A stretch of 44,059 bases of DNA from Phycisphaerales bacterium (GTDB taxonomy: Bacteria; Planctomycetota; Phycisphaerae; Phycisphaerales; UBA1924): assembly GCA_026982335.1 (NCBI GenBank), contig JALSHH010000046.1:1-44059 (forward strand), in the 5' to 3' direction. A program made the position numbers and the translations under genes. The notes under the pieces were generated by a model. It made no database searches and had not been told where the DNA came from. It worked only from the letters and a program-made list of their open reading frames with translations. The first letter of the stretch is position 1; each line of letters begins with the position of its first letter. Shown here piece by piece: positions 78 through 24,698 of this stretch.

Positions 78-101
78 CAAGCCCGAATCGAGAAAATTAT
101 G

Positions 102-124: not shown

Positions 125-164
125 GTGACGAATAACCCAATATTGTGTCATTCACCCCGTCGCC

Positions 165-2487: not shown

Positions 2488-2523
2488 CCCCATCCTTCAT
2501 CGCACAAATCCCAATTCCATCCG

Positions 2524-2555
2524 AGCCCGTTGCCGAAAGGTGCGGGCTTGTTTTT
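2524..2555 (+). terminator. Rho-independent terminator after Spy-like gene
   Basis: AGCCCG (2524-2529) pairs with CGGGCT (2543-2548). A GAAA tetraloop sits on an inner CC/GG pair, and TTTTT (2551-2555) follows. Confidence 0.85.
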
Positions 2556-2584
2556 CCTCTGATCAGCGAACGCAGGTTATGCCC

Positions 2585-2616
2585 AACGAGCCGCTCCCCC
2601 ACGGTCGCGGCTCGTT
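2585..2616. repeat. perfect 10-bp inverted repeat (intergenic hairpin)
   Basis: AACGAGCCGC (2585-2594) and GCGGCTCGTT (2607-2616) are perfect inverted arms around 12 bases. No T-run follows on either strand, so it is not a standard terminator. It lies between the convergent Spy-like gene and nuoF. It resembles a short hairpin I recall from planctomycete intergenic DNA, but that recollection is unverified. Confidence 0.7.
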
Positions 2617-2666
2617 CAATACATTCATATTCATGCGCTGATATTTACACTCTTTTTGAGCCTCAA

Positions 2667-4058: not shown

Positions 4059-4156
4059 CGAAAAGCTCCAATAGATCACCACCCCAACTCGAGGCGAGAT
4101 TCCACCGATTCTAGTCAACACGCACCGAGAATTGCATCCAAACCCTGTTTTCCCGG

Positions 4157-4162
4157 TATCCT
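4157..4162 (+). promoter_or_regulatory. -10 hexamer of a probable leaderless promoter
   Basis: TATCCT lies 5 bases before the ATG at 4168. No Shine-Dalgarno site is visible. See the finding on leaderless genes. Confidence 0.5.
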
Positions 4163-4167
4163 CTCCC

Positions 4168-5196: not shown

Positions 5197-5226
5197 CCCC
5201 ACAACCCGACGCCATGTCCGAAAAAA

Positions 5227-5352
5227 ATGAAAATACGATGGCACCGCCTCAATTCTGTGCTCTACTTTGCACGGTGGGTCAGGTATCCGGTTGAGACTTT
5301 CAACCTTGCAACAAAGAACATGCCGTTCGACCTGTTGCACAAGACCAAATGA
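5227..5352 (+). CDS. possible 41-aa small protein next to a terminator
   Basis: An open frame from ATG at 5227 to TGA at 5350-5352 encodes 41 residues beginning MKIRWHRLNSVLYF. It is basic and aromatic-rich with no transmembrane segment. The stop overlaps the first base of the terminator stem, as is usual for a real last gene. Against it: no clear ribosome site or -10 sequence precedes it, and it is short enough to arise by chance. It would be read after the epimerase gene (30 bp gap). Function unknown. Confidence 0.3.
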   Translation: MKIRWHRLNSVLYFARWVRYPVETFNLATKNMPFDLLHKTK

Positions 5353-5384
5353 AAAACGCTCCCGGAAGCACCGGGAGCGTTTTT
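5352..5384. terminator. bidirectional terminator between epimerase and comEC
   Basis: AAAAACGCTCCCGG (5352-5365) and CCGGGAGCGTTTTT (5371-5384) are perfect 14-bp inverted arms around AAGCA. A T-run occurs in both directions, which suits the convergent genes on either side. Confidence 0.93.
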
Positions 5385-5440
5385 CATCTTTTTGTCATCA
5401 GCACATCATTCAAAAACAAGGAAAATAAACCAAAGCAGGG

Positions 5441-7966: not shown

Positions 7967-8033
7967 CAATCTGTTGTACCCGTATTGCCCACCCGATGCA
8001 CACCCTAACGATCCAATATCGTTCCAGACACGC

Positions 8034-8064
8034 AAAAAGAACCCCGCATGGTGCAGGGTTCTTT
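8034..8064 (-). terminator. terminator after prepilin-like gene
   Basis: On the - strand AAAGAACCC (8064-8056) pairs with GGGTTCTTT (8044-8036), followed by T residues to 8034. It ends the gene at 8107-9300 and separates it from comEC. Confidence 0.85.
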
Positions 8065-8106
8065 GAGAAAATCATCGCAGGTGAGCCACGAAAGTAATTG
8101 GCTTGC

Positions 8107-9300
8107 TCAATTCACCGTCCCCAAGATATCGTCGAACTCACTGGCAAGATCGCCGGTGATGAACTTTCCATCGTCATCGGTGAGCCGATCAGTGCTTTCA
8201 CCAATTTTGTAGTTATTTCCAAAATCCAGGTGGAACTCGCCACCTTCGGTGTGGGCGTTCTGGTTCCATCCCTTTTCGTTGGTCGAGAAGTAGTACCCAT
8301 CAACGCCAGCGGACTGGACAATCAATCGTCCACGCGCGCGGGCAGGATAAATCTCATCAAAAGCAACAGCCTCGAGTGTTTGCCCTGCTTCGAGCAGGTA
8401 GTACGACGGACTGGCCAACATCGCCGTCAGTGTGCGGATCCGGTCGATCCCATCAATCGCAGCACCTTGCGGATCTTGGGGGCTCAGTGCGCTCAGTGCC
8501 CGCTGATTGGCGCCCGAGTCGCCCACATTTTCCGCTTCGTCACCAAAGAAAGTCTCGTTTGAAGCCAAGTAAAACCACGCAGGCCCATCGTCGGCATCGG
8601 TCCCGTCAGAAGTCAGCGTGGCAAACTGGCGATATACATCATCAGGATCGTCCACATCGGGGTCGATCGACCCACGCGAACTCTCATCCTTGACCCAGGC
8701 CAAAAGCGGGTTACCAAAAGCATCAACCACATCAAGCATCAACTCCTGCCCATCATTACCCGGGTTCTGAGGCGCCTGCTGACGAGCTTCGTGATCCATC
8801 GTGCGGATAAAATTCTTGTCCGGTGCAAAGTACGCTCCCTTTGAACCAATCAGATTGATATTGACAATCACAGGTTTGCGAACAGCATCACCCACAAAGG
8901 GCGCAATGGCAATGATCCCCTGGGCCGGATTGGGCGCAGGCACGCCGTCGTCGTCCATGCGTCCAAGAATCGCGTCAGGCCCGCCAAGCTCGAGCATGAC
9001 ATTCTCCATCGCCGACATACCTGATTCGATATTCTGCTGCCCCCCCATCTCATAAGACGAGAAATACCCCGGCATCCGCGAACCATGATCGTTCGAAAAC
9101 GAACTCGCCGCATTGGTCAACGCATTGATCATGCTCTGAGTACCCGACTTGAGCCCTGCCTGTCGAGCCCCGCTCAATGCAGGGAGCAAAATCGCCATCA
9201 ACAAGGCGATGATCGCAATGACCACCAACAACTCGACGAGTGAAAACGCCGACCGACGCCCCGGTACAATGGCTCTGGTTCCTGTGTGCTCAATCGACAT
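8107..9300 (-). CDS. prepilin-type N-terminal methylation/cleavage protein
   Basis: 397 aa. The N-terminus reads AFSLVELLVVIAIIALLMAI after a short basic leader. This is the class III (type IV pilin/pseudopilin) signal with the conserved Glu five residues into the mature helix. The long, mostly hydrophilic C-terminal part is rich in Asp, Ala and Gly and has no motif I recognise. Such proteins are very common in planctomycetes, usually as secreted pseudopilin-like proteins of unknown job. The start at 9300 follows GGAG by 9 bases. A role with the nearby comEC in DNA uptake is possible but is only inference from proximity. Confidence 0.88.
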   Translation of the reverse strand: MSIEHTGTRAIVPGRRSAFSLVELLVVIAIIALLMAILLPALSGARQAGLKSGTQSMINALTNAASSFSNDHGSRMPGYFSSYEMGGQQNIESGMSAMENVMLELGGPDAILGRMDDDGVPAPNPAQGIIAIAPFVGDAVRKPVIVNINLIGSKGAYFAPDKNFIRTMDHEARQQAPQNPGNDGQELMLDVVDAFGNPLLAWVKDESSRGSIDPDVDDPDDVYRQFATLTSDGTDADDGPAWFYLASNETFFGDEAENVGDSGANQRALSALSPQDPQGAAIDGIDRIRTLTAMLASPSYYLLEAGQTLEAVAFDEIYPARARGRLIVQSAGVDGYYFSTNEKGWNQNAHTEGGEFHLDFGNNYKIGESTDRLTDDDGKFITGDLASEFDDILGTVN

Positions 9301-9491
9301 GAAAAATAGCTCCGCCCGATTCTCAAAGTGTTCAACCCAAGTGCGCAAAACAGCCGCCGACCAAGCATACCCACACACACGCCCGGCGTCGTCCCCACAA
9401 CGATATACGAACCATTCTTCCCAACGGATGCCACCAACCCACACATCCCAAAGAACAGGCAACCTCGCCCCCTAACAAAGCACAGCCCGCC

Positions 9492-9752
9492 TCACAACAT
9501 GAATCCCAACAGCACCAAAATCAACCCAAACACCCCAAGCACCATCCACAACGACACCGATTGGGGCACTTCACCAAAATACCACCCACATTGAGGGCAC
9601 ATCTCGGCCTGGTCATAGATCATCGCCCCACAGTTAGGGCAGGAGTCCATCTCGTCACCAAACCGATCAAGATCCTGGGCCGAGGGACCTTCCGGGTCTA
9701 AACCTTCCGACAAATCCCAATCTTGGTCGAACGCGTGCTGATCCGGGCTCAT
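9492..9752 (-). CDS. small zinc-ribbon protein with C-terminal membrane helix
   Basis: 86 aa if started at the second of two adjacent ATGs (9752); 87 aa from 9755. It has an acidic N-terminus, then CPNCG and CPQCG (C38, C41, C52, C55) forming a zinc ribbon, then one hydrophobic helix at 68-86 ending at the C-terminus (tail anchor). TAGAAT lies 5 bases before the ATG at 9752, so I prefer that start as leaderless. Function unknown. It is divergent from the first flagellin gene, about 100 bp apart. Confidence 0.75.
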   Translation of the reverse strand: MSPDQHAFDQDWDLSEGLDPEGPSAQDLDRFGDEMDSCPNCGAMIYDQAEMCPQCGWYFGEVPQSVSLWMVLGVFGLILVLLGFML

Positions 9753-9848
9753 CATCGATTCTATCGCCAAACCGGCAAAGATTTGCAAATTTTGATCAAA
9801 CAACATCTTACGCATCATCCATCCCCCTCTTCGTCCGATCATACACCC

Positions 9849-10631
9849 ATGAACATCGGCAGCTTCGCGAACTTCAACTTCGGCATCCGTGCCTTGGCCC
9901 AGAACCAAGAGCAAGTCACCGAGTCCCTCGAACGATTGGCCACAGGCAAACAAATCAACCGCGCATCGGATGACCCCTCAGGCATGATCACTGCCGAACA
10001 ACACAAAGTGCGCATTTACTCCATCGAATCCCAACTCAAAACCTTCAATCAAACCCAGTCCTACCTGGGCGCCAAAGAAGGCGGACTCTCGGTCATCAAC
10101 GAAAAAGTCATCGAACTCAACGAACTTGTCATCCGCGCAGCCAACAAAGCAGGCAACACCGACGAAGAACAAGATGCCCTCGCACTCGAAATCAACGCCG
10201 TCCTCGATTCCATCGACACCATCGCCCAGACCACCACATTCAAAGGGCGATCCGTCCTGAGTGAATACACCTCCGGCTCGATCGCCGAGGGACTCGGTAC
10301 CTTGGCAACCCTCGCCTTTGAAGACCCAGAAGCCGCCCAAATCCTCGCCCAAGAAAGCGTCGATAAAGTCGCCCGCACCCGAGGCGCCATCGGCAACCGG
10401 CTCAACGAGATCAACACCCAACGATCCCTCCTTTCCGAAGAACTCATCAACCTCACCGGCTCACTCTCCTCAATCGAAGACACCGACTTCGCCACCGAGG
10501 CGGCCAAATTCGTCCGCGCCCAAATCCTCGAACAAGCCTCCATCATGGCCATCGACATCAACCGACAAAGCGCCCAACAAGTCCTCGGCCTGCTCAAAAG
10601 CGCCACCGACATGGCCAGCGCCATCACCTAA
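9849..10631 (+). CDS. flagellin-like protein 1 (short)
   Basis: 260 aa. The N-terminal helical region matches the flagellin D0/D1 domain: LAQNQEQVTESLERLATGKQ followed by NRASDDPSGM, the counterpart of the flagellin SGxxINSAxDDAAG region. The C-terminal helix (SSIEDTDFATEAAKFVRAQI and QQVLGLLK) matches flagellin D0. There is almost no variable D2/D3 region, so the protein is near the minimum for a filament subunit. Family role: secreted filament subunit, assembled through its end helices. No Shine-Dalgarno is clear. It is followed by a paralogue 205 bp downstream; no chaperone or other flagellar gene is present here. Confidence 0.85.
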   Translation: MNIGSFANFNFGIRALAQNQEQVTESLERLATGKQINRASDDPSGMITAEQHKVRIYSIESQLKTFNQTQSYLGAKEGGLSVINEKVIELNELVIRAANKAGNTDEEQDALALEINAVLDSIDTIAQTTTFKGRSVLSEYTSGSIAEGLGTLATLAFEDPEAAQILAQESVDKVARTRGAIGNRLNEINTQRSLLSEELINLTGSLSSIEDTDFATEAAKFVRAQILEQASIMAIDINRQSAQQVLGLLKSATDMASAIT

Positions 10632-10836
10632 CCCCCCCCCCGCCCCCTTGATCTCTTTTCTTCCGCGCCCCCCCTGTGTGCGTTGGAGCCAATCTTCTCT
10701 TTTCTCCCCTCGCCCCACCTTGTTATCGGCCCACCTCATCTTCGCCACCTTCACTCACCGACACACCCCCACAACATCTCTCCCCATTTCGCCTCCCACC
10801 TTGCATGACCGGCGGTGCAATTGGACACTCACATTC

Positions 10837-11631
10837 ATGTCCAGCATCACCCCCGCCACATCGCTCCTCCTGACCCATAACCTCAACGCCAACAACCTAT
10901 CCGCAATGAGCACCCTCGAGCGCCTCGCCACCGGCAGCGCCATCAACCGCGCCAGTGAGAACCCCGCAGGACTCATCGCGTCCGAGAACTTTGCTGCACG
11001 CCTCAATGTCATCCAAACCCAAATCTCCGCAACAGAACGCAACATCTCCGTCCTCAACACCCAAGATGCCAATCTGGGCGTCACACTCGAAAACATCTCC
11101 GATCTCGACGGCCTCGTGATTCAAAGTGCCAACGCCGGCGGCTTGACCGGATCAGAAATGGACGCCATCCAGACACAAGTCACAGGTATCCTCACCGGCA
11201 TCGACCGCATCGCCTCGGCCACCGGCATCGACATCACAAACGAAGTCACCACCGAAATGGTCATCGGCACCGACGAAACCACAGGCGATCCAATCACCGA
11301 AACCGTTTCGCTCGCCGAACTCGCGCGCGTACTCGAAACCGATCCAGAAGCGGCCCAACGGCTCGTCGAAGGTGCCCGTCAAGCCCTCGTCACCGCTCAA
11401 GCCCAAGTCGGCATCGAAGCCAGGGCTGCCGAATCTGAGCGACGAGTCCTCGAAGAAGAGCAAATCAATCTCGCCCGCGCCTACTCCCAAACCCGCGATG
11501 CCGATTACGCCCGAGAGAGCTCAAACATGATCCGCTCACAAATCCTGACCCAAGCATCGGTCTACACCATCCTCGCCCAACGACAGAGCGACGGGATGCT
11601 ACTGGGTTTGCTCAGCGATATCACAGCCTAA
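10837..11631 (+). CDS. flagellin-like protein 2 (short)
   Basis: 264 aa, paralogue of the preceding gene. Shared landmarks are LERLATGSAINRASENPAGL near the N-terminus and a C-terminal D0 helix (DADYARESSNMIRSQILTQA). The centre carries a short extra stretch (TTEMVIGTDETTGDPITETV) absent from the first copy. The start at 10837 is chosen because upstream codons are Pro/Ser-rich and non-flagellin. Most divergence lies in the middle, as expected for two subunits of one filament with different exposed surfaces. A structured segment and a strong terminator follow the stop. Confidence 0.83.
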   Translation: MSSITPATSLLLTHNLNANNLSAMSTLERLATGSAINRASENPAGLIASENFAARLNVIQTQISATERNISVLNTQDANLGVTLENISDLDGLVIQSANAGGLTGSEMDAIQTQVTGILTGIDRIASATGIDITNEVTTEMVIGTDETTGDPITETVSLAELARVLETDPEAAQRLVEGARQALVTAQAQVGIEARAAESERRVLEEEQINLARAYSQTRDADYARESSNMIRSQILTQASVYTILAQRQSDGMLLGLLSDITA

Positions 11632-11742
11632 ACCGGCCAGCACTGCCCTCGGAATAATCGGAACACGAACAGGAAATTTACCCCCAAAACACAGGCTTTC
11701 CGACAAGTTCAATTGGACAATCAAGGTAGTCCCAGCGGGTGT

Positions 11743-11849
11743 GGATACTTCTCTGGTGTCGGCGGTTGGTGCACTCCGAGCATCGCCAATCTCCGCGAAG
11801 TATCCCCTGCACAGGCCCCGCGCCAACACCCCCGGCGCGGGGCTTTTTT
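11743..11849 (+). ncRNA. candidate structured RNA or leader with terminator
   Basis: GGATACTTC (11743-11751) pairs perfectly with GAAGTATCC (11797-11805). Nested inside, GCGG (11762-11765) pairs with CCGC (11793-11796) and TTGG (11766-11769) with CCAA (11786-11789), leaving a TCT bulge; TGC/GCA (11770-11772, 11780-11782) closes a 7-base loop. A strong terminator follows at once. It is non-coding in all frames I can support. It may be an independent small RNA, the 3' UTR of the flagellin mRNA, or an attenuator for the glycosyltransferase at 11937. It matches no riboswitch class I know. Confidence 0.5.
11815..11849 (+). terminator. strong Rho-independent terminator
   Basis: GCCCCGCGCC (11815-11824) and GGCGCGGGGC (11834-11843) form a perfect 10-bp stem with a 9-base loop, followed by TTTTTT (11844-11849). 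It lies 183 bases after the second flagellin stop and 88 before the next start. Confidence 0.93.
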
Positions 11850-11936
11850 CTTTTTATACCTGCCTCGCTTTCCCGAAGCCCTGACGGCGAAAACAGACGG
11901 AAGAAGGCTTCTTCCCCAGGCCTACACTCCCACCAC

Positions 11937-13145
11937 ATGCCTCTCAACCACCACTCCACCTGCGTACTCAAGTTCACCGACACCCTCGCCGACATCAACG
12001 GCGTATGCCGATTCATCCAAAATACCGCCCAAGCCGCACACGACACCAACCGCAATCTCAAGGTCTTCACTTCCACACGCATGCACATGCCCGATGGCGA
12101 CAACCTCGTCAACTTTGAGCCCATCTTCGCAATGAAAATGCCCGGCTATGAAACACTCGACTTCGCCCTCCCCCCACTCATCGCCATGCTTCGTGCTGCC
12201 GATGCCTTCCGACCCGATCTCATCCACATCTCCACCCCAGGTCCCGTCGGCATGGTCGGCATGCTGGCTGCCAAACTCATGCACATCCCCATCACCGGCG
12301 TCTACCACACCGACTTCCCCGCCTACATCGACGAGCTTTTCAACAATCCATTGGCCTCTTCAGCAACTCGCCTGCTCATAGGCGCCTTCTATAAACAATT
12401 CCGATTCGTATTCGCACGCTCTGACGACTACGCCCGCCGCCTCGAATCCATCGGCATCCACAAAAATAAACTCCTCCGCCTCACCCCCGGGTTCGACAAC
12501 ACCAAGTTCGATCCAACACTTCGCGATCCCAACATCTGGAATCAACATGCCATCGCGACCGATTCGATCAAAGCTGTGTTCTGCGGACGCGTGAGCACCG
12601 AAAAAAACCTGCCAATGCTCGAAGCTATCTGGCCCAGCATTGTGAGCCGAATCGAGCAGGCTGGCAAAACCATCGACCTCATCATCATCGGCGACGGTCC
12701 ATACCGCACACAAATGGAATCGAACCTCAAAAACCAACACGCCCACTTCCTCGGGTTCCGCAAAGGCCACGAACTCGCCACCCTCTACGCTTCGTGTGAT
12801 CTCTTCATCTTCCCTTCCACCACCGACACCCTCGGGCAAGTCGTCATGGAATCGCAAGCTTCAGGCTTGCCCGTCATCGCCACCAACCAAGGTGGCCCAA
12901 AGGAAATCATCAACGATGGCCATACCGGGTTCGTCCTCCCAGTCGACACACCCGGTGCACATGCACGCTGGATCGAAACCATCGTCAGCCTCGCTCTTGA
13001 TGATACCAAACGAAAAGCAATGGGCACCGCCGGCATCAAAGTGATGAAATCCTACACCTTTACCCAATCCTTCGAGCACTACTGGCAAGTCCACGAATCG
13101 CTGATATCCTCACCAAAATCAAAACAACCAGAACCAAGAAAATAA
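11937..13145 (+). CDS. GT4-family glycosyltransferase
   Basis: 402 aa. GT-B fold glycosyltransferase of the SQD2/PimB-like branch of family GT4; it moves a sugar from a nucleotide-sugar to a lipid or glycan acceptor. Visible: the acceptor-side motif GVYHTDFPAYIDEL, a donor-domain start GRVSTEKNLPMLEA, GDGPYRTQM, and the EX7E-type region FPSTTDTLGQVVMESQASGLP. The start at 11937 is supported by TACACT 8 bases upstream and by N-terminal alignment; upstream codons lie in the terminator region. It stands alone with no sugar-nucleotide or lipid synthesis gene next to it, so the product is unknown. Confidence 0.88.
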   Translation: MPLNHHSTCVLKFTDTLADINGVCRFIQNTAQAAHDTNRNLKVFTSTRMHMPDGDNLVNFEPIFAMKMPGYETLDFALPPLIAMLRAADAFRPDLIHISTPGPVGMVGMLAAKLMHIPITGVYHTDFPAYIDELFNNPLASSATRLLIGAFYKQFRFVFARSDDYARRLESIGIHKNKLLRLTPGFDNTKFDPTLRDPNIWNQHAIATDSIKAVFCGRVSTEKNLPMLEAIWPSIVSRIEQAGKTIDLIIIGDGPYRTQMESNLKNQHAHFLGFRKGHELATLYASCDLFIFPSTTDTLGQVVMESQASGLPVIATNQGGPKEIINDGHTGFVLPVDTPGAHARWIETIVSLALDDTKRKAMGTAGIKVMKSYTFTQSFEHYWQVHESLISSPKSKQPEPRK

Positions 13146-13182
13146 ATGGCAATGACAAAAAAATAAATGGCAATGACAAAAA
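13141..13182 (+). repeat. 21-bp tandem duplication
   Basis: The unit AATAAATGGCAATGACAAAA plus one A occurs at 13141-13161 and again at 13162-13182 without mismatch, right at the glycosyltransferase stop codon. A recent slippage or duplication event is likely. Confidence 0.85.
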
Positions 13183-13819
13183 ATAGATAGATGATAAAAA
13201 AGCGGCTCGTCTCTTCCGAACAGGGGGCCGGGGCCTTCTTCGATTGCCTCGCTCAACCCCCACTCAACCCCCCATCGGCAGCGCCTGCCCCCCCTCGTAA
13301 CGATCCACAGGCCACGCGATCCACAATACAAAAACACAATAATAAATACAAAAAAGCCGCTGCCCATCGCAGCCGGTGTCAGCGTCCGAAACCCTGATCA
13401 ACAGGGGGGGGCCTCGAGCCAGAGCCCGACCTTCCACTCGAAGGAGGCCCGGTCATTGCCTGGCATGCTTTGGCTCCCGATCAGAGACTCAAAGGGTTCG
13501 AACTTATCTGACCGACCACGATGGGCAGCGTTTACAGCACCATACCACACCCCCCCCCAGTCCTGATCCATCAATTTTCAATTCCACACACAATTCTCCC
13601 CATTGCCTTTCTCTAATGTCCGGCCAACCCAATTTCTGCCGATATCCGCAACTCTCCCCGTTCTCGAGGCGTATCGTTCATCACAACGGGTCCAATTCTC
13701 GCGCTGTCTCTCAAAATTGCACCTCTTCAAGCCAGAAGAGCCCATGCAACCTGTGACAGCGGGCGAATTTCTCGCTATGCTCGTTGCTCAATCACCATAC
13801 ACAAATCCGAGGCCTTGCC
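13146..13819. other. 674-bp intergenic stretch, no supported gene
   Basis: No frame here looks coding. It holds the tandem duplication above, C-rich low-complexity runs near 13255-13300 and 13549-13558, and complementary arms GGGCCTC (13409-13415) with GAGGCCC (13444-13450), competing with GAGCCA (13416-13421) with TGGCTC (13471-13476). On the - strand AGCCGC runs into TTTTTT near 13347 after a weak GCTGC/GCAGC hairpin. A non-coding RNA is possible but not shown. Confidence 0.5.
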
Positions 13820-14107
13820 ATGAAGAATACACCACGCACCCTTCGCCGTACGCTCGCCACCGCCTTGCTCGGAGGTACCCCACTGCTCCTCGTCGGGTGT
13901 TCTTCTGGACCGTCGCACGCAGGCGATATCAACTCTATTCGCTGGGACCCCACACCCGCCATGCATACCTTGGCCGAACGCGACTCCGATCGAATCAACA
14001 CCCACGCCTATATCAAAGATTCGAACCTGCGTATGATCTCAACCGACCTTGATCGTGTCTTTTTCATGGATCGCCCATCGCGACTCTACATGGGCATCAA
14101 ACCCTAA
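13820..14107 (+). CDS. small lipoprotein
   Basis: 95 aa. A basic N-terminus (MKNTPRTLRRT), a hydrophobic core and a lipobox LLLVGCSS predict a lipoprotein with lipidated Cys near residue 27. The mature part is about 68 residues, polar, ending RPSRLYMGIKP. I recognise no domain. GAGG lies 7 bases before the start. It is flanked by a long intergenic stretch and a bidirectional terminator, so it is probably its own transcript. Confidence 0.75.
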   Translation: MKNTPRTLRRTLATALLGGTPLLLVGCSSGPSHAGDINSIRWDPTPAMHTLAERDSDRINTHAYIKDSNLRMISTDLDRVFFMDRPSRLYMGIKP

Positions 14108-14435
14108 CCTCTCCCCATACAGCTTCTTCTGTCTCCCTTTTAACCACTCTTTTTTACCTGCGCCTTGATTTTTCAGCACCGCCTTTCACCGCAACCAATC
14201 ATTGGCTCCTTCGATATGACTCAGAAGAAGTCGCTGCACGGTCATACACCCCACACCCAAAAAACGGTTGACAAACAAGCAAAAAACACCCGAACTCGGG
14301 TGTTTTTACAACATCTCTTTTACAAATGCTGGCACCACTTTTCACTTTGAGCCTTTCGGCACTTCCGCAAAAACCCTCCTCATGGATACCAAGAGGCAGT
14401 CAGCAAAATCAAGCCCCTCAAAAAATGCCAAAGAA
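14108..14435. other. intergenic stretch between convergent genes
   Basis: About 330 bp with no supported gene. It contains the terminator at 14281-14307; otherwise I see only T-rich and C-rich non-coding sequence. Confidence 0.5.
14281..14307. terminator. bidirectional terminator
   Basis: AAAAACACCCG (14282-14292) pairs with CGGGTGTTTTT (14297-14307) around AACT. It is flanked by A and T runs and so works in both directions between the lipoprotein (+) and the HTH protein (-). Confidence 0.88.
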
Positions 14436-14864
14436 CTATTTGGCAGTATACCGTCCGCGTGCAACTTTCTTGAACATCTTCTTTTCACGAATCAGCGCCT
14501 GATTCACAATTGTACGGAAATTGGCAGCCGTCGTAATATATCCGGCCTTTTGTACCGCCCGGGTTGCCTCCGTAACGGACATCGTCTTGCCGTCAAGCAC
14601 CTGAACGAGTGAATCGACAAGGTTCATTTCGTTGCGAGGTCGACGCCGAATCCGACCCGATGCCCCCAATGCACCAACCGACCCCAGCTCGGAATCAATC
14701 TTGGCCAACTCATCGAGAAGCTTTTCTCGCCGTCGTTCGAGTTTACGGATTCCTCGCTCACGCCGTTGAAGTTCGGCCTGAAGTTCACCGAAGGACATGC
14801 TGTTGGCAGAAATTTTGACCGGTGCTTTTGTTTTTTGTTTTCGTGGTGCTGTTTTTTTAGCCAT
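14436..14864 (-). CDS. coiled-coil protein with C-terminal winged-helix-like domain
   Basis: 142 aa. The basic N-terminus (MAKKTAPRKQKTKAPVK) could touch nucleic acid. Residues 25-62 form a charged coiled coil (LQAELQRRERGIRKLERRRE). The last 60 residues (VTEATRAVQKAGYITTAANF through FKKVARGRYTAK) look like a winged helix similar to the HARE-HTH/HB1 type. A regulatory or nucleoid role is inference. An alternative start three codons upstream (14873) cannot be excluded. It lies downstream of parB on the same strand with a 241-bp gap. Confidence 0.7.
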   Translation of the reverse strand: MAKKTAPRKQKTKAPVKISANSMSFGELQAELQRRERGIRKLERRREKLLDELAKIDSELGSVGALGASGRIRRRPRNEMNLVDSLVQVLDGKTMSVTEATRAVQKAGYITTAANFRTIVNQALIREKKMFKKVARGRYTAK

Positions 14865-15105
14865 TGTTGTCATTCTTTCATATTGGATGTGCTGCTCAAG
14901 AGTAATACGGCACTCATACCGCCCACGCATAGATGGCAGGATGAGTATAAAAAAGATATGTCACCAAAATGAGGAGAAATGATAGTCCCGCAAGTAACCC
15001 TATTCTCATATTTTTGCTCATATTTGAACATTTGAACGCACTTCAAAGCAAATTCAAGCCCCGTCCCACCCATTTCCCGGTACACCTTGTTTCGAAAAGG
15101 CGCTG

Positions 15106-16155
15106 TCATTCGCTTAACTCATCAGTACCTCGTACACCAAGCCGATTCAGCAACCCGTCAAAATGATCAAGATCGTAAAACTCGATGACAATACACCCTT
15201 TCGTACCTGATCGATCAGTCTTGAGTTTCACTTTGGTCCCAAGCTCTTCACCAAGCCGGTCCTCTAAATCTTTGAGCACCGACTCAACCCGCGAAACAAC
15301 CCCATTTGTATTGCCAACGACCATTGGTGTTTCTGAGGTGTTTTGATTGGCATTGGATGCGGCCATGTTTTCAAGTAGACGAACATTCCACCCATCCTTA
15401 AGTGCCTGCTGCGCCAACTTGAGCCGTCGATCGGGATCGTTACACGAAAGAAGCGCCTTGCCGTGTCCGGCGCTGAGTTCTCCGGATGCGATCAAGGTTT
15501 GAATTTCCTCGTCGAGCTCGATCAACCGAAGCAGGTTGGCCACAGACGATCGACTGATCCCAACCTTTGCCGCAATTTGTGCTTGGGTCATCGAAAAATT
15601 CTTGACCAACCTTGCAAAGCCATTGGCCCGTTCAATCGGATTAAGATCTTCACGTTGGATGTTTTCAATCAAGGCAAGCTGCGCCGATTGCAGGTCATCA
15701 GCATCGAGCACGATCGCTCGAATGCGAGGCTGCCCTGCCTGAACACTCGCACGCCACCGGCGCTCTCCCGCAATCAGTTCGTACACACCATCACCTACCC
15801 AACGCACCACGATCGGTTGCATTAATCCATGCTCAACAATCGATTGGGCAAGTTCTTCGATTGCCTCGTCTGAAAAAAAACGCCGAGGCTGATGGGGATT
15901 GGGCCTAATATGAAGCACATCGAGTTCAACAACCTGCCTGTCTGCTCCCTCTTCAAGAGAAACCCCACCACCCACCCCTGTGTTCGTGTTTTGGCCGACC
16001 GTTGGGTTTGGCACCCGAATTGGGGCCCCTCCTCCTTGTTCCACCAGAGCACTGAGTCCCCGCCCAAGCTTTGACCGGGCCCGTTTTGTTCGCCGTGGAG
16101 GCGTGGTGGGGTGAGGACGAGGATCAGGATGAGGGTCAGGAATAGGGGTGCTCAT
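15106..16155 (-). CDS. parB: chromosome partitioning protein ParB (Spo0J family)
   Basis: 349 aa. CTP-dependent clamp that loads at parS sites and spreads to organise the origin region. Visible: the N-terminal ParA-contact motif KLGRGLSALV (29-38), the ParB/Srx CTP-binding motif GERRWRA (130-136) and ENIQREDLNPIE (164-175), a helix-turn-helix (about 188-212), and a C-terminal dimerisation part. The linker at 41-75 is Gly/Pro-rich. The start at 16155 is fixed by AAGGAGG (16168-16162) six bases upstream; the 26 extra upstream codons are rejected. parA is not adjacent, unusual for this family. Two parS-like sites lie 0.3 and 1.3 kb away. Confidence 0.95.
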   Translation of the reverse strand: MSTPIPDPHPDPRPHPTTPPRRTKRARSKLGRGLSALVEQGGGAPIRVPNPTVGQNTNTGVGGGVSLEEGADRQVVELDVLHIRPNPHQPRRFFSDEAIEELAQSIVEHGLMQPIVVRWVGDGVYELIAGERRWRASVQAGQPRIRAIVLDADDLQSAQLALIENIQREDLNPIERANGFARLVKNFSMTQAQIAAKVGISRSSVANLLRLIELDEEIQTLIASGELSAGHGKALLSCNDPDRRLKLAQQALKDGWNVRLLENMAASNANQNTSETPMVVGNTNGVVSRVESVLKDLEDRLGEELGTKVKLKTDRSGTKGCIVIEFYDLDHFDGLLNRLGVRGTDELSE

Positions 16156-16161
16156 TGAATG

Positions 16162-16168
16162 CCTCCTT
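16162..16168 (-). promoter_or_regulatory. ribosome binding site that fixes the parB start
   Basis: AAGGAGG on the - strand, six bases before the ATG at 16155. It is among the strongest Shine-Dalgarno sites in the window and decides the start. Confidence 0.9.
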
Positions 16169-16227
16169 GTTTGACAGATTTGAAATGCAATGGACTTCAT
16201 AAAAAGGATAGCCGATTTCTCAAGGCA

Positions 16228-16233
16228 TAGCAT
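16228..16233 (+). promoter_or_regulatory. -10 hexamer of a probable leaderless promoter
   Basis: TAGCAT lies 5 bases before the ATG at 16239 of the NUDIX gene. Confidence 0.45.
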
Positions 16234-16238
16234 GGATC

Positions 16239-16766
16239 ATGGGATCAAAGCATACCACCGAACTCATCGTCCGCGGGCTCCTGCTCAACCACGGCCGGGT
16301 ATTGATGTGCCGAAACAATAAGCACAACTACTGCTATCTCCCCGGCGGCCATATTGAATTCGCCGAAAAGGCCCGCGACGCACTCCGTCGTGAGCTCAAA
16401 GAGGAAACCGGACTCGATGCCCAAACAGGCCCGCTGCTGCTCACCACCGAGCAATGCTTTGATGACGGCCAGCAAGTTCACCACGAAATCAATGTCGTGT
16501 TCCATGTGGAACAATTGGGCCTGTCAAAAACGCCACCCGAAACGGTACCGACACTCGAAAACAAAATCGACTTTGTCTGGATCGAACTGGCCCAACTCCC
16601 CGAGACCGATGTCCGCCCCAGCGAGATCAAAGCCTGGCTGATGAGTGGGGGCGCCACCCAAGCATCCCAAGGTCCCTGGCTCAGCGGGTTCGATTCCCCC
16701 CCCGCCCCCCCCCCTACTCCTACCACCACCAACAACACCAACACGAACGGTTCAGCCGCACATTGA
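16239..16766 (+). CDS. NUDIX hydrolase
   Basis: 175 aa. The NUDIX box is complete: GGHIEFAEKARDALRRELKE then ETGL (36-59), with the metal-binding REL...EE glutamates. Family role: hydrolysis of nucleoside diphosphate derivatives in the cytoplasm; the substrate cannot be told from the sequence. The last 35 residues are Pro/Thr/Asn low complexity and C-rich in DNA. Divergent from parB. A parS-like site lies inside the coding sequence at 16498-16513. Confidence 0.9.
   Translation: MGSKHTTELIVRGLLLNHGRVLMCRNNKHNYCYLPGGHIEFAEKARDALRRELKEETGLDAQTGPLLLTTEQCFDDGQQVHHEINVVFHVEQLGLSKTPPETVPTLENKIDFVWIELAQLPETDVRPSEIKAWLMSGGATQASQGPWLSGFDSPPAPPPTPTTTNNTNTNGSAAH
16498..16513. promoter_or_regulatory. parS-like site 1
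   Basis: TGTTCCATGTGGAACA is palindromic except for its centre. It differs by one base (position 8) from TGTTCCACGTGGAACA, a natural variant of the parS consensus TGTTTCACGTGAAACA. It lies 0.34 kb from the parB start, inside the NUDIX gene. Confidence 0.7.
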
Positions 16767-16843
16767 CCCGCCTGTTTGGGGGGGCAGCAAACCGCCTTCA
16801 GCATTGATGCTGATTCTGATTCCAACTTCAGCCTTCTGCTTGA

Positions 16844-17779
16844 ATGAGGGCTCCATTGGGTCGAGATAAACGCTCGATGCCTTCGTCAAGTCCCAATCCT
16901 GCCCTTACCCCTGAGCGATCCGAGATACACCCATCGCCCTCACTGTCGGCTTCGGTGCTCGACGAAATCGAGCAGATAGGCTCCTTCCTGAGCTCGATCG
17001 AATCTCATTTCGACCAAGCTTCGAGCCTCGCCGAGCTCGGCGTGTTCTCCTCGATGTTTGCCCATGAAGTCAATAACCTGATGACCCAGGTCGGTGGCCG
17101 GGCCCAAATGGCATTGATGAATATGGATCGACCCGAAATGGTCGTCCGGGCACTCGAGCTCGCCTGCCATGCAAGCACCCAGATCGCCCAGCTTTCTGAG
17201 ATTTTTCTCGAATCTGCCGACACCGATTCACCTCATGCCGATCAATACAGCCTGTGCGATATCCACAAACGGGCAATTGAGTTCCTTGCTGACGAGGATG
17301 TCCAAGCATATGGCTTGACCCTCGAAGTGAATCCGGCCGATCTCAAGGTGTCAATTTCACCCATTCTGCTTCAACAGGTGCTTCTGAATCTTTACCTCAA
17401 TGCGATCAGGGCCATTGAAGAGTCGGTTTCATCTGGGCCTCACCAAATCATAACCCAAATTGAGCAGATCATACCTGAAGGTAATTGTTCCCCGTGGAAC
17501 ATGCCTCAGATCAGAATCACGGTTACGGACACTGGAATTGGGATGGATCCCCAGCAGGTCGAGCAAGTATTTCGTGCCCCATCTCGTCGACCATCGATCC
17601 AAGGCACCATTCGTTCCAGTGGCCGCGGACATGGGCTCGGATTATCAGTGTGTCAAAAATTGCTTACCCAAGCTGGTGGGAGTATCAAAGCCAACTCGAG
17701 CCCGGGCAAAGGCACCGAGATCACCATAACCTTACCCAGTTCCAACTCCAGTTTGACTCCACCCCTGACTTGCCCTTGA
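16844..17779 (+). CDS. soluble sensor-less histidine kinase
   Basis: 311 aa from 16844, or 300 aa from the ATG at 16877. Visible: the H-box FAHEVNNLMTQ with phospho-acceptor H74, the N-box LNLYLNAIRAIE, G1 DTGIGM and G2 GRGHGLGLSVC, a complete HisKA-HATPase pair. No transmembrane helix or recognised sensor domain precedes the H-box; the N-terminal 55 residues are Ser/Pro-rich. Family role: autophosphorylation and phosphotransfer to a response regulator, none of which is encoded nearby. A parS-like site lies inside the gene (17486-17501), and an 11-bp tandem repeat spans the stop codon. The skew flip follows immediately. Confidence 0.9.
   Translation: MRAPLGRDKRSMPSSSPNPALTPERSEIHPSPSLSASVLDEIEQIGSFLSSIESHFDQASSLAELGVFSSMFAHEVNNLMTQVGGRAQMALMNMDRPEMVVRALELACHASTQIAQLSEIFLESADTDSPHADQYSLCDIHKRAIEFLADEDVQAYGLTLEVNPADLKVSISPILLQQVLLNLYLNAIRAIEESVSSGPHQIITQIEQIIPEGNCSPWNMPQIRITVTDTGIGMDPQQVEQVFRAPSRRPSIQGTIRSSGRGHGLGLSVCQKLLTQAGGSIKANSSPGKGTEITITLPSSNSSLTPPLTCP
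17486..17501. promoter_or_regulatory. parS-like site 2
   Basis: TGTTCCCCGTGGAACA differs by one base (position 7) from TGTTCCACGTGGAACA. The half-site TGTTCC is the same as in site 1. It lies 0.33 kb from the compositional flip. Confidence 0.7.
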
Positions 17780-17799
17780 CTTGCCCTTGACCTGCCCTC
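17767..17799 (+). repeat. three 11-bp tandem repeats
   Basis: GACTTGCCCTT occurs twice without mismatch (17767-17777, 17778-17788), then GACCTGCCCTC (17789-17799). The period is not a multiple of three, and the array crosses the histidine kinase stop codon. It lies at the GC-skew sign change. Confidence 0.85.
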
Positions 17800-17830
17800 C
17801 CCCGGTCTGTCCTTGATGAATGATTGAAGT

Positions 17831-18919
17831 TCAAACATCGGCAACAGGCACGATATCGCCTGCGAGGAACTCAACCTGAACTGCATCGCCGGGTTCGGGG
17901 TGTACAGCTGAGGTTGAGCCAAAGGGATTCATCTCCGCGATTTTGATCGGCGGGCAACCTTTGATTTCAACGAGATGCTGGGCGGTTTCACCAAGATAGG
18001 TCGTATCTAAGAGTTTGCCTGGCAAGGTGTTAGGCTCACCACCTTTGCGCAACCGAATCGCCTCGGGGCGGATGGAGAGCAGGTTTCGTTCGGCATTTGT
18101 CCCCTCTCGCCGTGGTCCGAGGAATTGTCCTGCTTGAACTTGGTAGGTGGAGGCATGGTCCGTGCCATCGACGGGTTGGGCTTCGATGAGGTTGGTTTCG
18201 CCGAGGAACTCGGCGACGAATCGGGTCTTGGGCGAACGATAGAGCTCGCGAGGGGTACCGACCTGCATGATTTTGCCCGATCGCAGCAGCGCCACGCGAT
18301 CGGCCATCGAAAGCGCCTCTTTTTGATCATGCGTCACATAGACGGTGGTGATACCCGAAGCTTTACAGACATTGCGGATTTGGTGGCGGAGATCATTGCG
18401 AAGTTTGGCATCAAGGTTTGATAAAGGTTCGTCGAGCAGAAGGACATCGGGTTTGATGACCAATGCGCGGGCCAAGGCGACGCGTTGTTGTTGTCCGCCT
18501 GAGAGCTCGTTGGGTTTGCGATGGGCGTAGGCTTCCATTTGTACCGCTGCGAGTGCTTCGAGAACGCGCTGGTCTTTTTCGGGGTTGGGAATTTTGCGGA
18601 CATTGAGCCCAAAGGCCACATTGCCTGCGACCGTCATATGAGGCCAAAGGGCATAGGACTGGAAGACCATCCCAGTGTTTCGCTTGTTGGGGGCGTTGTG
18701 TGTGACATCTTTGCCATCGAAGGCGATTTGGCCGCTGGTGGGATCGATGAATCCGGCGATCATACGCAGGAGTGTTGTTTTGCCACACCCCGAAGGGCCC
18801 AAGAGGAAAAAGAGCTCCCCAGGTTCGATGGTCAATGTGAGATCATCGACGGCTGCGGTTGCTTTGGAACCCGAGCCGAAGATTTTGACGAGGTTATTGA
18901 TCGTAATTTGTGTACCCAT
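17831..18919 (-). CDS. ABC transporter ATP-binding protein (MalK/PotA/FbpC type)
   Basis: 362 aa. Walker A GPSGCGKTT (41-49), signature LSGGQQQR (139-146), Walker B VLLLDEP (159-165), an H-loop in VTHDQKEA, then a C-terminal TOBE-like regulatory part (about 240-362). This layout is typical of ATPases for sugar, polyamine or iron(III) importers. No permease or binding protein is next to it, so the substrate is unknown. It shares a 41-bp intergenic space with the divergent DciA-like gene; TATGAT lies 8 bases before its ATG, so a leaderless or one-base leader transcript is likely. Confidence 0.93.
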   Translation of the reverse strand: MGTQITINNLVKIFGSGSKATAAVDDLTLTIEPGELFFLLGPSGCGKTTLLRMIAGFIDPTSGQIAFDGKDVTHNAPNKRNTGMVFQSYALWPHMTVAGNVAFGLNVRKIPNPEKDQRVLEALAAVQMEAYAHRKPNELSGGQQQRVALARALVIKPDVLLLDEPLSNLDAKLRNDLRHQIRNVCKASGITTVYVTHDQKEALSMADRVALLRSGKIMQVGTPRELYRSPKTRFVAEFLGETNLIEAQPVDGTDHASTYQVQAGQFLGPRREGTNAERNLLSIRPEAIRLRKGGEPNTLPGKLLDTTYLGETAQHLVEIKGCPPIKIAEMNPFGSTSAVHPEPGDAVQVEFLAGDIVPVADV

Positions 18920-18960: not shown

Positions 18961-19353
18961 GTGACGAGCAACAAAGCGCAATCTTTCTCTGACGGCATGC
19001 AGGTTCCGAGGGATCCACTGGACCGGCTTCGCTCGTATCGCCAGCATCCTGACCGGGCTCGCGGACTCGGTGAGGACTTGGCTGTTGTGCTGCATTCGAC
19101 GAAGAAAATTTCTGTAAGCGAGCAGGCCGCAGGTGAGGCTTGGGGCGCGTTGGTCCCGGATATGATTGGGGAGTGTACCCGGATTGGCGGTTTTCGAGCG
19201 GGGAAATTGATTGTGCTGGTCCCCAGCAGCGCCCATCGGTATACGGTGGATCGTTGGCTTGGTAGTGGGGGATTAAGGGCGTTACAGGAGTTGGCCCGAG
19301 TGCCTATCGGGGGTGTGATCCTCAAAATTACGCGAGAATTTGATCGAATCTGA
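18961..19353 (+). CDS. DciA-like (DUF721) protein
   Basis: 130 aa with GTG start. The order of a short N-terminal basic helix and a KH-like domain (EAWGALVPDMIGECTRIGGF, RAGKLIVLVPSSAHRYTV) fits the DUF721/DciA family, whose members help load the replicative helicase in bacteria lacking DnaC. The assignment is by overall pattern, not an exact motif. The start follows TAGACT by 6 bases; an internal ATG at 18997 is the alternative. Its location near the proposed origin suits a replication role. It is followed by a structured non-coding segment, not by gyrB or dnaA. Confidence 0.65.
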   Translation: MTSNKAQSFSDGMQVPRDPLDRLRSYRQHPDRARGLGEDLAVVLHSTKKISVSEQAAGEAWGALVPDMIGECTRIGGFRAGKLIVLVPSSAHRYTVDRWLGSGGLRALQELARVPIGGVILKITREFDRI

Positions 19354-19908: not shown

Positions 19909-22626
19909 ATGTCGATGGATAAACTGACCACGCTTGCTCAAGAAGCACTCGCCAAAGCTCAGCAGGTTTCGATGGGGGCGTCGAATCCAGAGGTGGGGGG
20001 GCTTCATGTGCTCGATGCATTGATCGAAGATGCCAATGGACCTGTCGTGGCGATTTTGAACAAGATCGGCGCGCCGGTGGCACAAATGGTGCAGATTGCC
20101 AAGTCCGAGCTCGGTCGGCTCCCCAAGACTTCATCGGGGGCCGGATCGAGCGGGCGCGAAATCATGGAGATTCTGGGCAAGGCCGACGCAGCGGCGACGG
20201 CGATGGGCGATCAATTCATCTCATGCGAGCATTTACTGATCGCGCTCACCGAGATCGGAGGCAGCGCCGGCGAAGTGCTCAAGGTGCACAATGTAGATAC
20301 AAAGTCAGTCAAAGCAGCGATCGAAGAAATCCGCAAGGCATCAGGGGTAAGCCATATTACCGACCCCAACGCGGAAGGTTCGTTCGAGTCGCTCAAGAAG
20401 TATGGGATTGATCTGACCGACCAGGCGCGTGAGGGCAAGATTGACCCGGTGATCGGGCGTGACGAGGAGATTCGGCGGTGCATGCAGGTGCTTAGTCGGC
20501 GTACGAAAAATAATCCTGTGTTGATCGGTGAGCCGGGTGTTGGGAAGACCGCGATTGTCGAAGGGATTGCCTTGCGAATTGTCAATGGCGATTGCCCCAG
20601 CGGCATGAGCGATAAACGGATCATCGCGCTCGATGTCGGGTTACTCCTCGCCGGTGCCAAATATCGCGGAGAATTTGAGGATCGGCTCAAAGCAGTTTTG
20701 CGCGAAGTTGAGGGCAGCGACGGGCAGGTAATTCTGTTTATTGATGAGTTACACACGATCTTGGGTGCAGGGGCAGCCGAGGGTGCGGTAAGCGCGGGGA
20801 ACCTGCTCAAGCCTGCCTTGGCCCGCGGCGGGCTGCGCGCCATTGGGGCGACAACGCTTGATGAGTATCGTAAGCACATTGAAAAGGATGCGGCGTTTGA
20901 GCGCCGTTTCCAGAAGGTACTTGTCGAGGCGCCCAGTGTTGAAGAAACGGTTGCGATCTTGCGCGGACTCAAGGATCGGTACGAGACGCATCATGGGGTA
21001 CGGATTCAGGACGGGGCCATTCTGGCTGCGGCGAGCTTGAGCGATCGGTACATCACGGAAAGATTTTTACCTGATAAAGCGATTGACCTGATTGATGAGG
21101 CAGCCAGTGCGTTGCGGATGGAAATCGACTCGATGCCGACCGAACTCGATGAGTTGCGACGGAAAATCATGCAACTCGAAATCGAGCGTGAAGCACTGAA
21201 ACTTGATGAGGGAAGTGAAGGGAACAAGAAAGAGATTGAGCGGGTTGAGGAAGAACTCGCGGGATTGCGTGAGCAGAACAATGCACTCAGTGCCCGCTGG
21301 GAAGAAGAAAAACGAGACCTCGATGTGGTCCGACACATCAAAGGGGAGATCGAGCACAAACGCGTTGAGCTCGAGCAGGCCCAGCGAATTGGCGATCTTG
21401 AATGCGCAGCGCGGATTCAATATGGCGATCTTGTTGAGCTTGAGAAACAGCTCGAAGAGGCCGAGGCCAATATTGACCAGCGGGCGGCTTCGGGTGAACT
21501 GCTCATTAAGGAAGAGGTTGATCCCGAATCAGTGGCCAAGATCGTCGGGCGATGGACCGGAATACCAGTATCACGGCTGGTTGAATCCGAACGGGACAAG
21601 CTTGTACAAATGGAAGATCACCTCAAAGCACGCGTGGTTGGGCAAGATGATGCGCTCACGGCGGTGGCTGATGCGGTGCGTCGATCGCGAGCAGGGCTTG
21701 GCGATCCGACCAAGCCGATCGGGAGTTTCTTGTTCCTTGGGCCAACAGGTGTGGGCAAGACCGAGACTTGCAAGGCACTAGCAGAGTTCTTGTTCGATAC
21801 TGAAGATGCGCTTGTGCGGATTGACATGAGTGAATATATGGAGAAGCACGCGGTGAGTCGGCTCATCGGTGCGCCTCCGGGGTATGTCGGGTATGAAGAG
21901 GGCGGAGCATTGACCGAAGCGATTCGGAGAAGGCCTTATGCGGTGATCCTGCTCGATGAGATTGAAAAGGCGCATCCGGATGTGTTCAATGTGCTGTTGC
22001 AGCTCTTGGACGATGGTCGGCTGACCGACGGGCAAGGGCGAACGGTTGATTTCAAGAACACGATCGTGGTGATGACGAGTAATATTGGCAGCCAGAAGAT
22101 TTTGCAGATGGCTGAGCACGGTGCTGAGGACTGGGAAATCGAGGCAGCAGTGCGTGATCTGATTCGGCGTGGTCCTGGAGCTGATCTTGATGCTCAGGGT
22201 ATGAAGCCTGATCTTGAGACCGGGAAGATGAATGTGAATCTTGATGTGGGGATGCGCGAGCAGTTCTTCCGCCCGGAGTTGTTGAATCGGATTGATGAAA
22301 CGGTTGTGTTCCATCAGCTCGGCAAGGAGACGCTTATTGGGATCGCTGATATTCTCCTTGGATCGTTGCGTGATCGGTTGGCAGCTCGTGGGATTGAGTT
22401 GTCATTGACCAGTGCGGCAAAGGAGCAGCTGATCGCGGAGGGGTTCGATCCGGCGTATGGTGCTCGTCCTCTTGCTCGTACGATTCAAAGGCGGATTGAA
22501 AACCCGCTGGCGAGCCGAATTTTGGCTGGAGAATTTGAATCGGGTGATCGAGTGACTGTTGATGCCAGTGGGCCAAGTTTTGTCTTTACGCACTCAACGG
22601 AAGACCCGTCCAAGCAGGCGGTGTAG
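19909..22626 (+). CDS. clpB: ATP-dependent disaggregase ClpB
   Basis: 905 aa. Hexameric Hsp100 chaperone that, with DnaK, pulls polypeptides out of aggregates in the cytoplasm. Layout: N-terminal Clp repeats (1-150), first AAA+ domain with Walker A GEPGVGKT (207-214) and [12 protein letters not shown], a long coiled-coil middle domain (about 410-540), second AAA+ domain with Walker A GPTGVGKT (near 611), and a ClpB-type C-terminal domain. The middle domain separates it from ClpA and ClpC. The second AAA+ domain has a short insertion around [20 protein letters not shown] (about 760-780), longer than in E. coli ClpB. It stands alone with a long structured leader. Confidence 0.97.
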
Positions 22627-23703: not shown

Positions 23704-23954
23704 CATTGAGGGAATGGACTGGGACTGGCGCGAGGTTGTGTCTGATGATGCGTGCATCTGACGGAAGAAGGCAAACCATCTCAGACAGAACCTGATGGAG
23801 GAGAAACGGAAGAAAAACACAGAGATACAGAGAATGGTTTTTTTACCCGAGGAGCGTGAAGGGCTCGAAGGAGGAGATTGGAGGAGACTTCGTCACCTGC
23901 ATGGCACCGGCACCGGGACAATCTCTTCTTTGTGGCTTTGGTGTTCTTTTCTCC

Positions 23955-23960
23955 TACCAT
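23955..23960 (+). promoter_or_regulatory. -10 hexamer of a probable leaderless rnpA promoter
   Basis: TACCAT lies 5 bases before the ATG at 23966. The GGAG at 23961-23964 is too close to the ATG to act as a normal ribosome site. Confidence 0.4.
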
Positions 23961-23965
23961 GGAGC

Positions 23966-24397
23966 ATGGACTTGGATTCTTCGGCACAACCTCTTGGCCC
24001 AGCGGTATTTCGGGCTCGGCATCGGATTCGAACTCGAGCGGAGTTTGAGGCGGTGTTTGAGGCCAAGATCCGCAAATCTTATGGCCCCATCACCGTTTTT
24101 GTGCTTGCAACAGGCCGCAACGAGCATCGGCTTGGGCTTTCAGTTGGGCGCAAGGTGGGCCACGCGGTGGTGCGCGGGCGGTTCAAGCGCATGATGCGTG
24201 AGGTGTTTCGGCTTTATCGTGGGCGGCTGCCTGTCATTGATGGTGGGGGGCATTATGACATCGTGGTGACGACCCGCAGGCATGAGATACTCGGGCTTGA
24301 GGCTTATGCTCGGTTGTTTGTTCAGGCGGTTGAGGCGGCTCATCGGGTGCATGAGAAACGGACAAAGCAAGCAGCAGGTGGGCAGAAGGATGAGTGA
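23966..24397 (+). CDS. rnpA: ribonuclease P protein component
   Basis: 143 aa from 23966. Binds the RNase P RNA and helps remove 5' leaders from pre-tRNA. The family core is clear: RIRTRAEFEAVFEA, LGLSVGRKVGHAVVRGRFKR and MMREVFR, containing the RNR-like basic motif region. An open frame extends 57 codons further upstream, but those residues are not RnpA-like and would make the protein too long. The C-terminal 30 residues are a polar extension. It overlaps yidD by 8 bp. rpmH, the usual upstream neighbour, is absent. Confidence 0.88.
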   Translation: MDLDSSAQPLGPAVFRARHRIRTRAEFEAVFEAKIRKSYGPITVFVLATGRNEHRLGLSVGRKVGHAVVRGRFKRMMREVFRLYRGRLPVIDGGGHYDIVVTTRRHEILGLEAYARLFVQAVEAAHRVHEKRTKQAAGGQKDE

Positions 24398-24698
24398 GCA
24401 CACTCAACTTGGGATCTGGTCGCGGATTGGGAACTGGCCATTTTTGGGGATGATTTATCTGTATCGGGTGACGCTCTCGCCTTTTCTTGGTGGGCAATGT
24501 CGATTCGAACCCACCTGTTCGCGATATGGAATCGAGGCATATAAGGCTTATGGGCCTCTCCGAGGGACGATCATGACCGGGAAGCGGATTTTGCGTTGTC
24601 ATCCGTTTTCCAAGGGTGGATATGATCCGGTGCCGATACCATCATGCAGGCATGAAAAGCATGCAACGGATGGATCAAATGAAAGTGAGCAGGATTGA
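24390..24698 (+). CDS. yidD: membrane protein insertion efficiency factor YidD
   Basis: 102 aa. A small, membrane-associated protein of the YidC/Sec insertion pathway. The family motif is plain: LYRVTLSPFLGGQCRFEPTC followed by SRYGIEAYKAYG and a Cys/His-containing RCHPF. The start at 24390 overlaps the rnpA stop, matching the usual rnpA-yidD arrangement. A polar tail of about 25 residues follows the family core. The stop overlaps the ATG of the next gene (TGATG), which suggests translational coupling. Confidence 0.93.
   Translation: MSEHTQLGIWSRIGNWPFLGMIYLYRVTLSPFLGGQCRFEPTCSRYGIEAYKAYGPLRGTIMTGKRILRCHPFSKGGYDPVPIPSCRHEKHATDGSNESEQD

Follow-up and report, generated by a model that had tools for sequence, protein, structure and literature searches.

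Does the sharp GC-skew flip beside parB in the DNA analysed here mark a replication origin, and is it the only such point on its chromosome? Exactly one origin is expected on a bacterial chromosome. The window, i.e. the whole 44,059-nt stretch, is the entire contig C46 of a Phycisphaerales assembly (G000; 2.56 Mb, 56 contigs, 92% complete); relatives are numbered from G001 on and contigs C1, C5 etc. G006 and G007 belong to the same genus as the window, G024 to another genus, and G028 and G036 to other families. All genomes compared are fragmented assemblies, and the 56 contigs of G000 are unordered and sampled in part (stretches of 12/56 contigs, 11 of them included in the scan for skew jumps). 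A ParB match was found in 36 of 41 genomes, and long parB neighbourhoods were compared for 13 relatives and the window. A ParB scan of genome contigs (best 80 of 597 matches) returned mostly distant bacteria, with Phycisphaeraceae and Phycisphaerales assemblies among the closest named matches listed; six of these 80 loci were viewed for skew, then set aside.

The skew switch and its surroundings in the window

The minus-to-plus change in GC skew lies at 17,780–17,900 (a point without strand), at the convergent junction between a histidine-kinase-like ATPase gene (16,844–17,779, + strand), a neighbour kept in most relatives, and a gene for a PotA-like ABC transporter ATPase (17,831–18,919, − strand), the first to the right of the flip; the cumulative skew minimum of the window is at 17,890. 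The original prediction, that an excess of C over G gives way to one of G over C at about 17.8 kb, is borne out by skews of −0.259 (1–17,800) and +0.233 (17,900–44,059), and the counts it quoted for 60-base lines are exact (23 C/10 G from 17,701, 25 C/11 G from 17,761, 11 C/24 G from 18,121 and 13 C/22 G from 18,181). The change-point statistic (2,844) is greater than the maximum of 1,537 reached when 500-base blocks were permuted 20,000 times. The SkewDB abstract (PMC8941118) gives 2.5% as typical, about one tenth of the skew in the window (−0.26 left, +0.23 right).

Coding direction had been said not to cause this bias, and it does not: third-position skew is negative in 11/11 genes examined to the left and positive in 15/15 to the right, on both strands, including five + strand genes left of the flip and two − strand genes right of it. 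Gene direction or codon use is therefore ruled out for the window as the cause of the skew. For most of the 26 genes there is a Pfam match; the gene at 14,436–14,930 matches no family above cut-off and the DciA-like gene falls below its own. A self-trained gene caller was unreliable in strongly skewed stretches (flagellin genes reversed in the window, parB missed or reversed in G007 and G006), and the strand control rests instead on the window's own genes and on homology-supported genes. Third-position skew is near −0.66 in the two adjacent flagellin genes (9,723–11,631, + strand), in an arm where some of the other genes lie on the − strand.

parB (15,106–16,233, − strand; ParB_N, HTH_ParB and ParB_C), followed downstream by a conserved small gene without a family above cut-off (14,436–14,930, − strand), and rnpA and yidD (23,795–24,698, + strand), within 7 kb of the flip, were all confirmed by Pfam as predicted, while the DciA-like gene, a possible helicase loader (18,961–19,353, + strand), gave only a weak match (19.5 bits vs a cut-off of 24). 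A conserved NUDIX hydrolase gene (16,239–16,766, + strand) adjoins parB, and the right arm starts with a Clp ATPase gene (19,909–22,626, + strand). The predicted parS-like sites were recovered, matching TGTTCCAYGTGGAACA with 0 and 1 mismatch (better strand): TGTTCCATGTGGAACA (16,498–16,513, + strand) inside the NUDIX gene and TGTTCCCCGTGGAACA (17,486–17,501, + strand) inside the kinase-like gene, 1.4 and 0.4 kb from the flip (n = 2). parB thus has parS palindromes nearby, the arrangement of a ParB-parS centromere region. No parA adjoins parB among the neighbouring ORFs scanned, and the ParA-named match at 165–1,568 is of the NUBPL type. In genomes of the same genus (n = 10), parS is 265–476 bases from the parB start in 8/10, the remaining two (G006 and G007) having three parS sites 639–1,351 bases away. 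Rfam and tRNA scans of the window gave no matches.

Two features for which a scan had been proposed are missing at the flip. There is no cluster of DnaA boxes of the E. coli type, one box with a single mismatch being found nearby (17,259), and no AT-rich unwinding element, the intergenic gaps at and right of the switch being 45–47% AT and the most AT-rich 100-base stretches lying near 13.1 and 14.95 kb.

Conservation beside parB and the separate dnaA loci

An upward skew change adjoins parB in 12/12 family members examined (window included), always with parB on the minus side, although in weaker cases (G011, G018, G010, G013 and G015) skew rises only to about zero. The cumulative minimum within 12 kb is −0.3 to +6.3 kb from the parB start; such a minimum exists in any profile, and the evidence is the sign change of the profile. 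A two-segment fit places the change point 0.1 to 2.0 kb from the parB start in 10/12, and 6.2 and 6.9 kb from it in G015 and G002. A clear flip at parB was not found in G028 and G036.

The gene order ParB, NUDIX, kinase, ABC ATPase, DciA is kept in seven relatives. In six (G016, G013, G015, G018, G002 and G010) the arms are swapped: genes of the window's right arm, from Clp to the signal peptidase, are found on the − strand to the left of parB, and five of the six have the ComEC, pilin and flagellin genes to its right. Seen from the flip, the swapped genes still point the same way as in the window. Bacterial chromosomes are known to undergo inversions symmetric about the origin (Eisen et al. 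2000, as cited in PMC7111523), and such inversions would leave arms swapped as they are around the flip. A local inversion boundary, the alternative raised with the original prediction, fits poorly because the flip persists with its flanks inverted. What holds of the predicted origin is a point of origin type: strand-independent, beside parB in 12/12, with arms swapped in six relatives, and next to parS. What does not hold is a unique minimum with DnaA boxes and an AT-rich element. On these sequence features the window probably contains a replication origin.

dnaA is not next to the flip: dnaA1 is on another contig (C17) of G000, and is ~100 kb from parB in G006 and G011. Two DnaA proteins with both the ATPase and the DNA-binding domain are encoded in G000 (C17:63,429 and C12:18,741; L001 and L002), and two Bac_DnaA matches were obtained in 17/17 relatives tested across the order. 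DnaA boxes occur within 600 bases downstream of dnaA1 in 11/13 genomes, all but one on the same strand, while the 12 family parB loci have 0 to 2 boxes of the E. coli type per 5 kb, and boxes of this type are not enriched at skew jumps. Since the boxes are located beside dnaA1 and not at parB, it is the dnaA locus that resembles a classical oriC; the parB locus looks like a second origin, for which the second DnaA would be the obvious candidate as initiator. Skew rises across dnaA1 by at least 0.1 in 8/13 genomes and by at least 0.2 in three (G000, where it changes from −0.13 to +0.11 on C17, G014 and G016). There is no flip at dnaA in G006 and G007, in which the downstream boxes are also present.

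Further skew jumps and scattered parS sites

The flip is not the sole minimum: other upward jumps occur in the same genome, and several on single contigs in relatives. On G007 contig C10 (775 of 1,425 kb examined) sharp upward jumps are found at 10.3, 445.8, 768.1, 847.7 and 1,302.3 kb, and on G006 contig C6 (complete, 493 kb) strong ones at ~208, 333 and 488 kb, together with weaker ones near 2.5, 120, 160 and 364 kb. Jumps in G000 are spread over several contigs, with a strand control in the window only: in addition to C17, C14 has partial upward jumps of 0.18 (near 40 kb) and 0.21 (near 68 kb), a weak one of 0.17 lies on C1, and on C5 an upward jump (0.33) is followed by a downward one (−0.24). 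Skew far beyond the usual few per cent was seen in G000 C5:1–12,000 (12 kb at about −0.3 to −0.5) and G006 C6:448–488 kb (40 kb at about −0.4). Among the jumps examined, that at parB is the largest at the 5-kb scale in G007 (+0.64), G006 (+0.85) and G000. Secondary jumps are mostly not common to different species in the sequence examined.

Most jumps have the same polarity. On a 5-kb grid, steps above +0.2 outnumber those below −0.2 by 5 to 0 in both G007 C10 and G006 C6, and a scan of 14 sequences with 8-kb halves (threshold 0.2) gave 12 up and 2 down; the counts vary with settings (13 up/5 down with 5-kb halves, 18 up/8 down at threshold 0.15). Steps in one 50-kb stretch of E. coli, too short for a full control, range from −0.13 to +0.10. 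In G006 and G007 homology-supported genes on both strands track the sawtooth, the two strands being offset from each other and many of the 20-kb bins containing few or no such genes. Several strand-independent jumps of one polarity thus lie on a single contig in G007 and G006, as expected of multiple origins.

Between jumps skew declines linearly in 8/9 intervals (R2 0.75–0.93), the ninth fitting a line poorly (R2 0.29). The drop per interval (slope × length) is 0.22–0.55 in G007 (0.55 over 435 kb, 0.42 over 203 kb, 0.22 over 118 kb with nine bins only, 0.51 over 79 kb and 0.34 over 454 kb) and 0.22–0.72 in G006 (0.72 over 117 kb, 0.22 over 88 kb, 0.66 over 125 kb and 0.52 over 156 kb), and does not rise with length; slopes in G007 are −0.643 per 100 kb over 79 kb vs −0.075 per 100 kb over 454 kb. 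Such independence of length is not what a local effect that fades within a set distance would give; it would fit fork polarity between neighbouring origins, which behaves in this way.

In 1.86 Mb of G007, G006, G000 and G011, every parS site with up to two mismatches (13/13) has an upward jump no more than 1.4 kb away, a count that includes weak jumps of 0.15 and in which 10/13 sites belong to parB clusters and three lie elsewhere; for sites with three mismatches the count is 0/4. parS with at most one mismatch is present in 21/21 genomes of the genus, at 11–16 sites in G003, G004, G006 and G007, five to seven in G001, G017 and G019, and two or three (forward strand) in G000 and thirteen others. 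Outside the genus, where the search used one spelling only, that of the window's genus, G024 has 11 sites with the same pattern and the remaining 15 family or order members none to two. Among jumps, parS was not found at four strong ones (three in G007, one in G006) or at some weaker ones; it is therefore not required for a jump. A passage in PMC5815017 reports parS in other bacteria almost exclusively near the origin, and parS at a skew jump is thus what would be expected of an origin.

Seven scattered sites were also selected by parS alone and skew was compared in the 2 kb around each, the G007 site being not wholly blind (flanks ~10 and 40 kb away were already known). Right-minus-left differences are +0.72, +0.40 and +0.55 in G006 and +0.125 in G007 (null SD 0.085–0.11), and +0.13, 0.00 and +0.20 in G024 (null 0.062; one nil, one just below the 95% level), i.e. 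large jumps at 3/4 in-genus sites and weak or none at the three in G024. A further G006 site, known beforehand (C5:25,053), gives only +0.08. G000 has only two good parS sites, a third (two mismatches) being 754 bases from a weak jump with a local 1-kb difference of −0.04. The parS jump sites at G006 C8:263,620 and G007 1,302,268 are orthologous (69% across a 327-base stretch that includes parS).

K-mer enrichment in 13 jump/parS regions returned parS, circularly for the 4/13 regions picked by parS, plus a weaker TGCGCACAA in 5/13; no k-mer of 7–10 bases among the top-ranked is common to all 13. A palindrome like TTGTGCGCACAA (up to two mismatches) is within 200 bases of 6/11 scattered parS sites (L278, L279, L281, G006 C6:207,523, G007 C10:1,302,296 and G000 C14:40,823) and also occurs elsewhere. 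It is absent at the three G024 sites, L280 and G006 C5, and no copy lies less than 1 kb from the parB jump of either G006 or G007; on the count of 6/11 it was dropped as a general companion of scattered parS. G006 C6 has nine occurrences of a 40-base element (e.g. C6:208,107–208,146), which G000 C14 and C12 also contain.

Competing explanations and comparison with known systems

The strand-independent flip, its conservation beside parB, the swapped flanks and the same-polarity jumps elsewhere in the genome and genus make it somewhat probable that the chromosome is copied from several origins, the flip in the window being the parB/parS-marked member of the set. At the flip, next to parB and two parS sites, two forks would regularly start and diverge. 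Fork direction, and hence GC skew, would jump at each origin and drift toward the next, and the origins of one chromosome would be used with unequal efficiency. ParB could gather several of them for segregation, as many origins would bear parS in one set of relatives. The fullest version, with several fixed origins, many of them parS-marked and gathered by ParB, and with the parB locus as the primary one, starting without the usual DnaA-box cluster, is put forward tentatively, at a little under even chances.

One ordinary origin at the parB locus, with the remaining jumps being scars of inversions, translocations or assembly joins, is unlikely. It would agree with the parB jump being both the largest of those examined at the 5-kb scale in G006, G007 and G000 and the most widely conserved, and rearrangements are common here and sharp downward steps do occur. 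However, inversions should give both signs equally, against the excess of upward jumps seen in the scan (12 to 2) and on the coarse grid (10 to 0); smooth declines with a length-independent drop are unexpected from scars, and parS sites predict jumps in G006.

A single origin per round, its position shifting over evolutionary time or between cells so that skew averages over positions, is quite improbable too. The scarcity of secondary jumps common to the species examined fits such shifting, as does the rise of at least 0.1 at dnaA in 8/13 genomes with none in G006 and G007, but frequent and site-specific relocation would be required, and one secondary parS jump is orthologous in two divergent species.

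It is very unlikely that replication truly starts in the DnaA-box region at dnaA, with the flips linked to parS arising from some other directional process, e.g. SMC complexes loaded at parS. The boxes downstream of dnaA1 (11/13), the skew rise there (8/13), the parB locus without a box cluster and the coincidence of parS with jumps are all compatible with it, but four strong jumps lack parS and the dnaA locus of G006 and G007 has no flip; SMC traffic is not known to cause mutations in a strand-specific manner. That skew follows gene direction or codon use and not replication is scarcely credible: 13/15 right-arm genes examined are on the + strand, yet on each side of the flip in the window the sign of third-position skew is the same for genes of either strand, and both strands track the sawtooth in G006 and G007.

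The preferred reading of several origins can be set beside known systems. Like a bacterial oriC with a ParABS region, the window has a skew switch adjacent to parB and parS, with rnpA-yidD within 7 kb and arm inversions about it, but its flip lacks dnaA, a DnaA-box cluster and an AT-rich element and is not the sole switch. Mammalian replication domains have a skew sawtooth of sharp upward jumps and linear declines. The shape here is the same, in intervals of 80–450 kb on a bacterial chromosome.

Gao 2015 (PMC4403523) describes putative double origins from DoriC; in Dehalobacter sp. CF the second one is beside parB. A second, parB-adjacent candidate origin on a bacterial chromosome is the point in common with the flip, but the DoriC cases, as described there, are called from DnaA boxes and number two per chromosome, whereas the jumps here are more numerous, skew declines linearly between them and parS is scattered. 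Multiple origins have been proposed from skew for a few bacteria, with a warning that other causes are possible (Xia 2012; PMC3269012). Archaeal multi-origin chromosomes, treated in the same source, likewise have several skew switches per chromosome, but the present case is a bacterium with DnaA. Cyanobacteria are reported to be copied from multiple origins without DnaA (PMC7198777); starts at many places on a bacterial chromosome are thus on record, but the skew described there is irregular, while the sites here are discrete, strongly skewed and often parS-marked. Among the matches listed from the open-licence literature there was no report of multiple origins in Planctomycetota.

If several origins are indeed used, a DnaA-bearing bacterium would have discrete, strongly skewed and partly parS-marked origins, testable by ordinary metagenome read coverage, and the question would arise of how several origins are segregated in such cells and how replication is completed in the absence of a fixed terminus. 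To earlier multi-origin proposals the present case adds the asymmetry in jump direction, the length-independent drop, the conservation of the flip and its association with parS.
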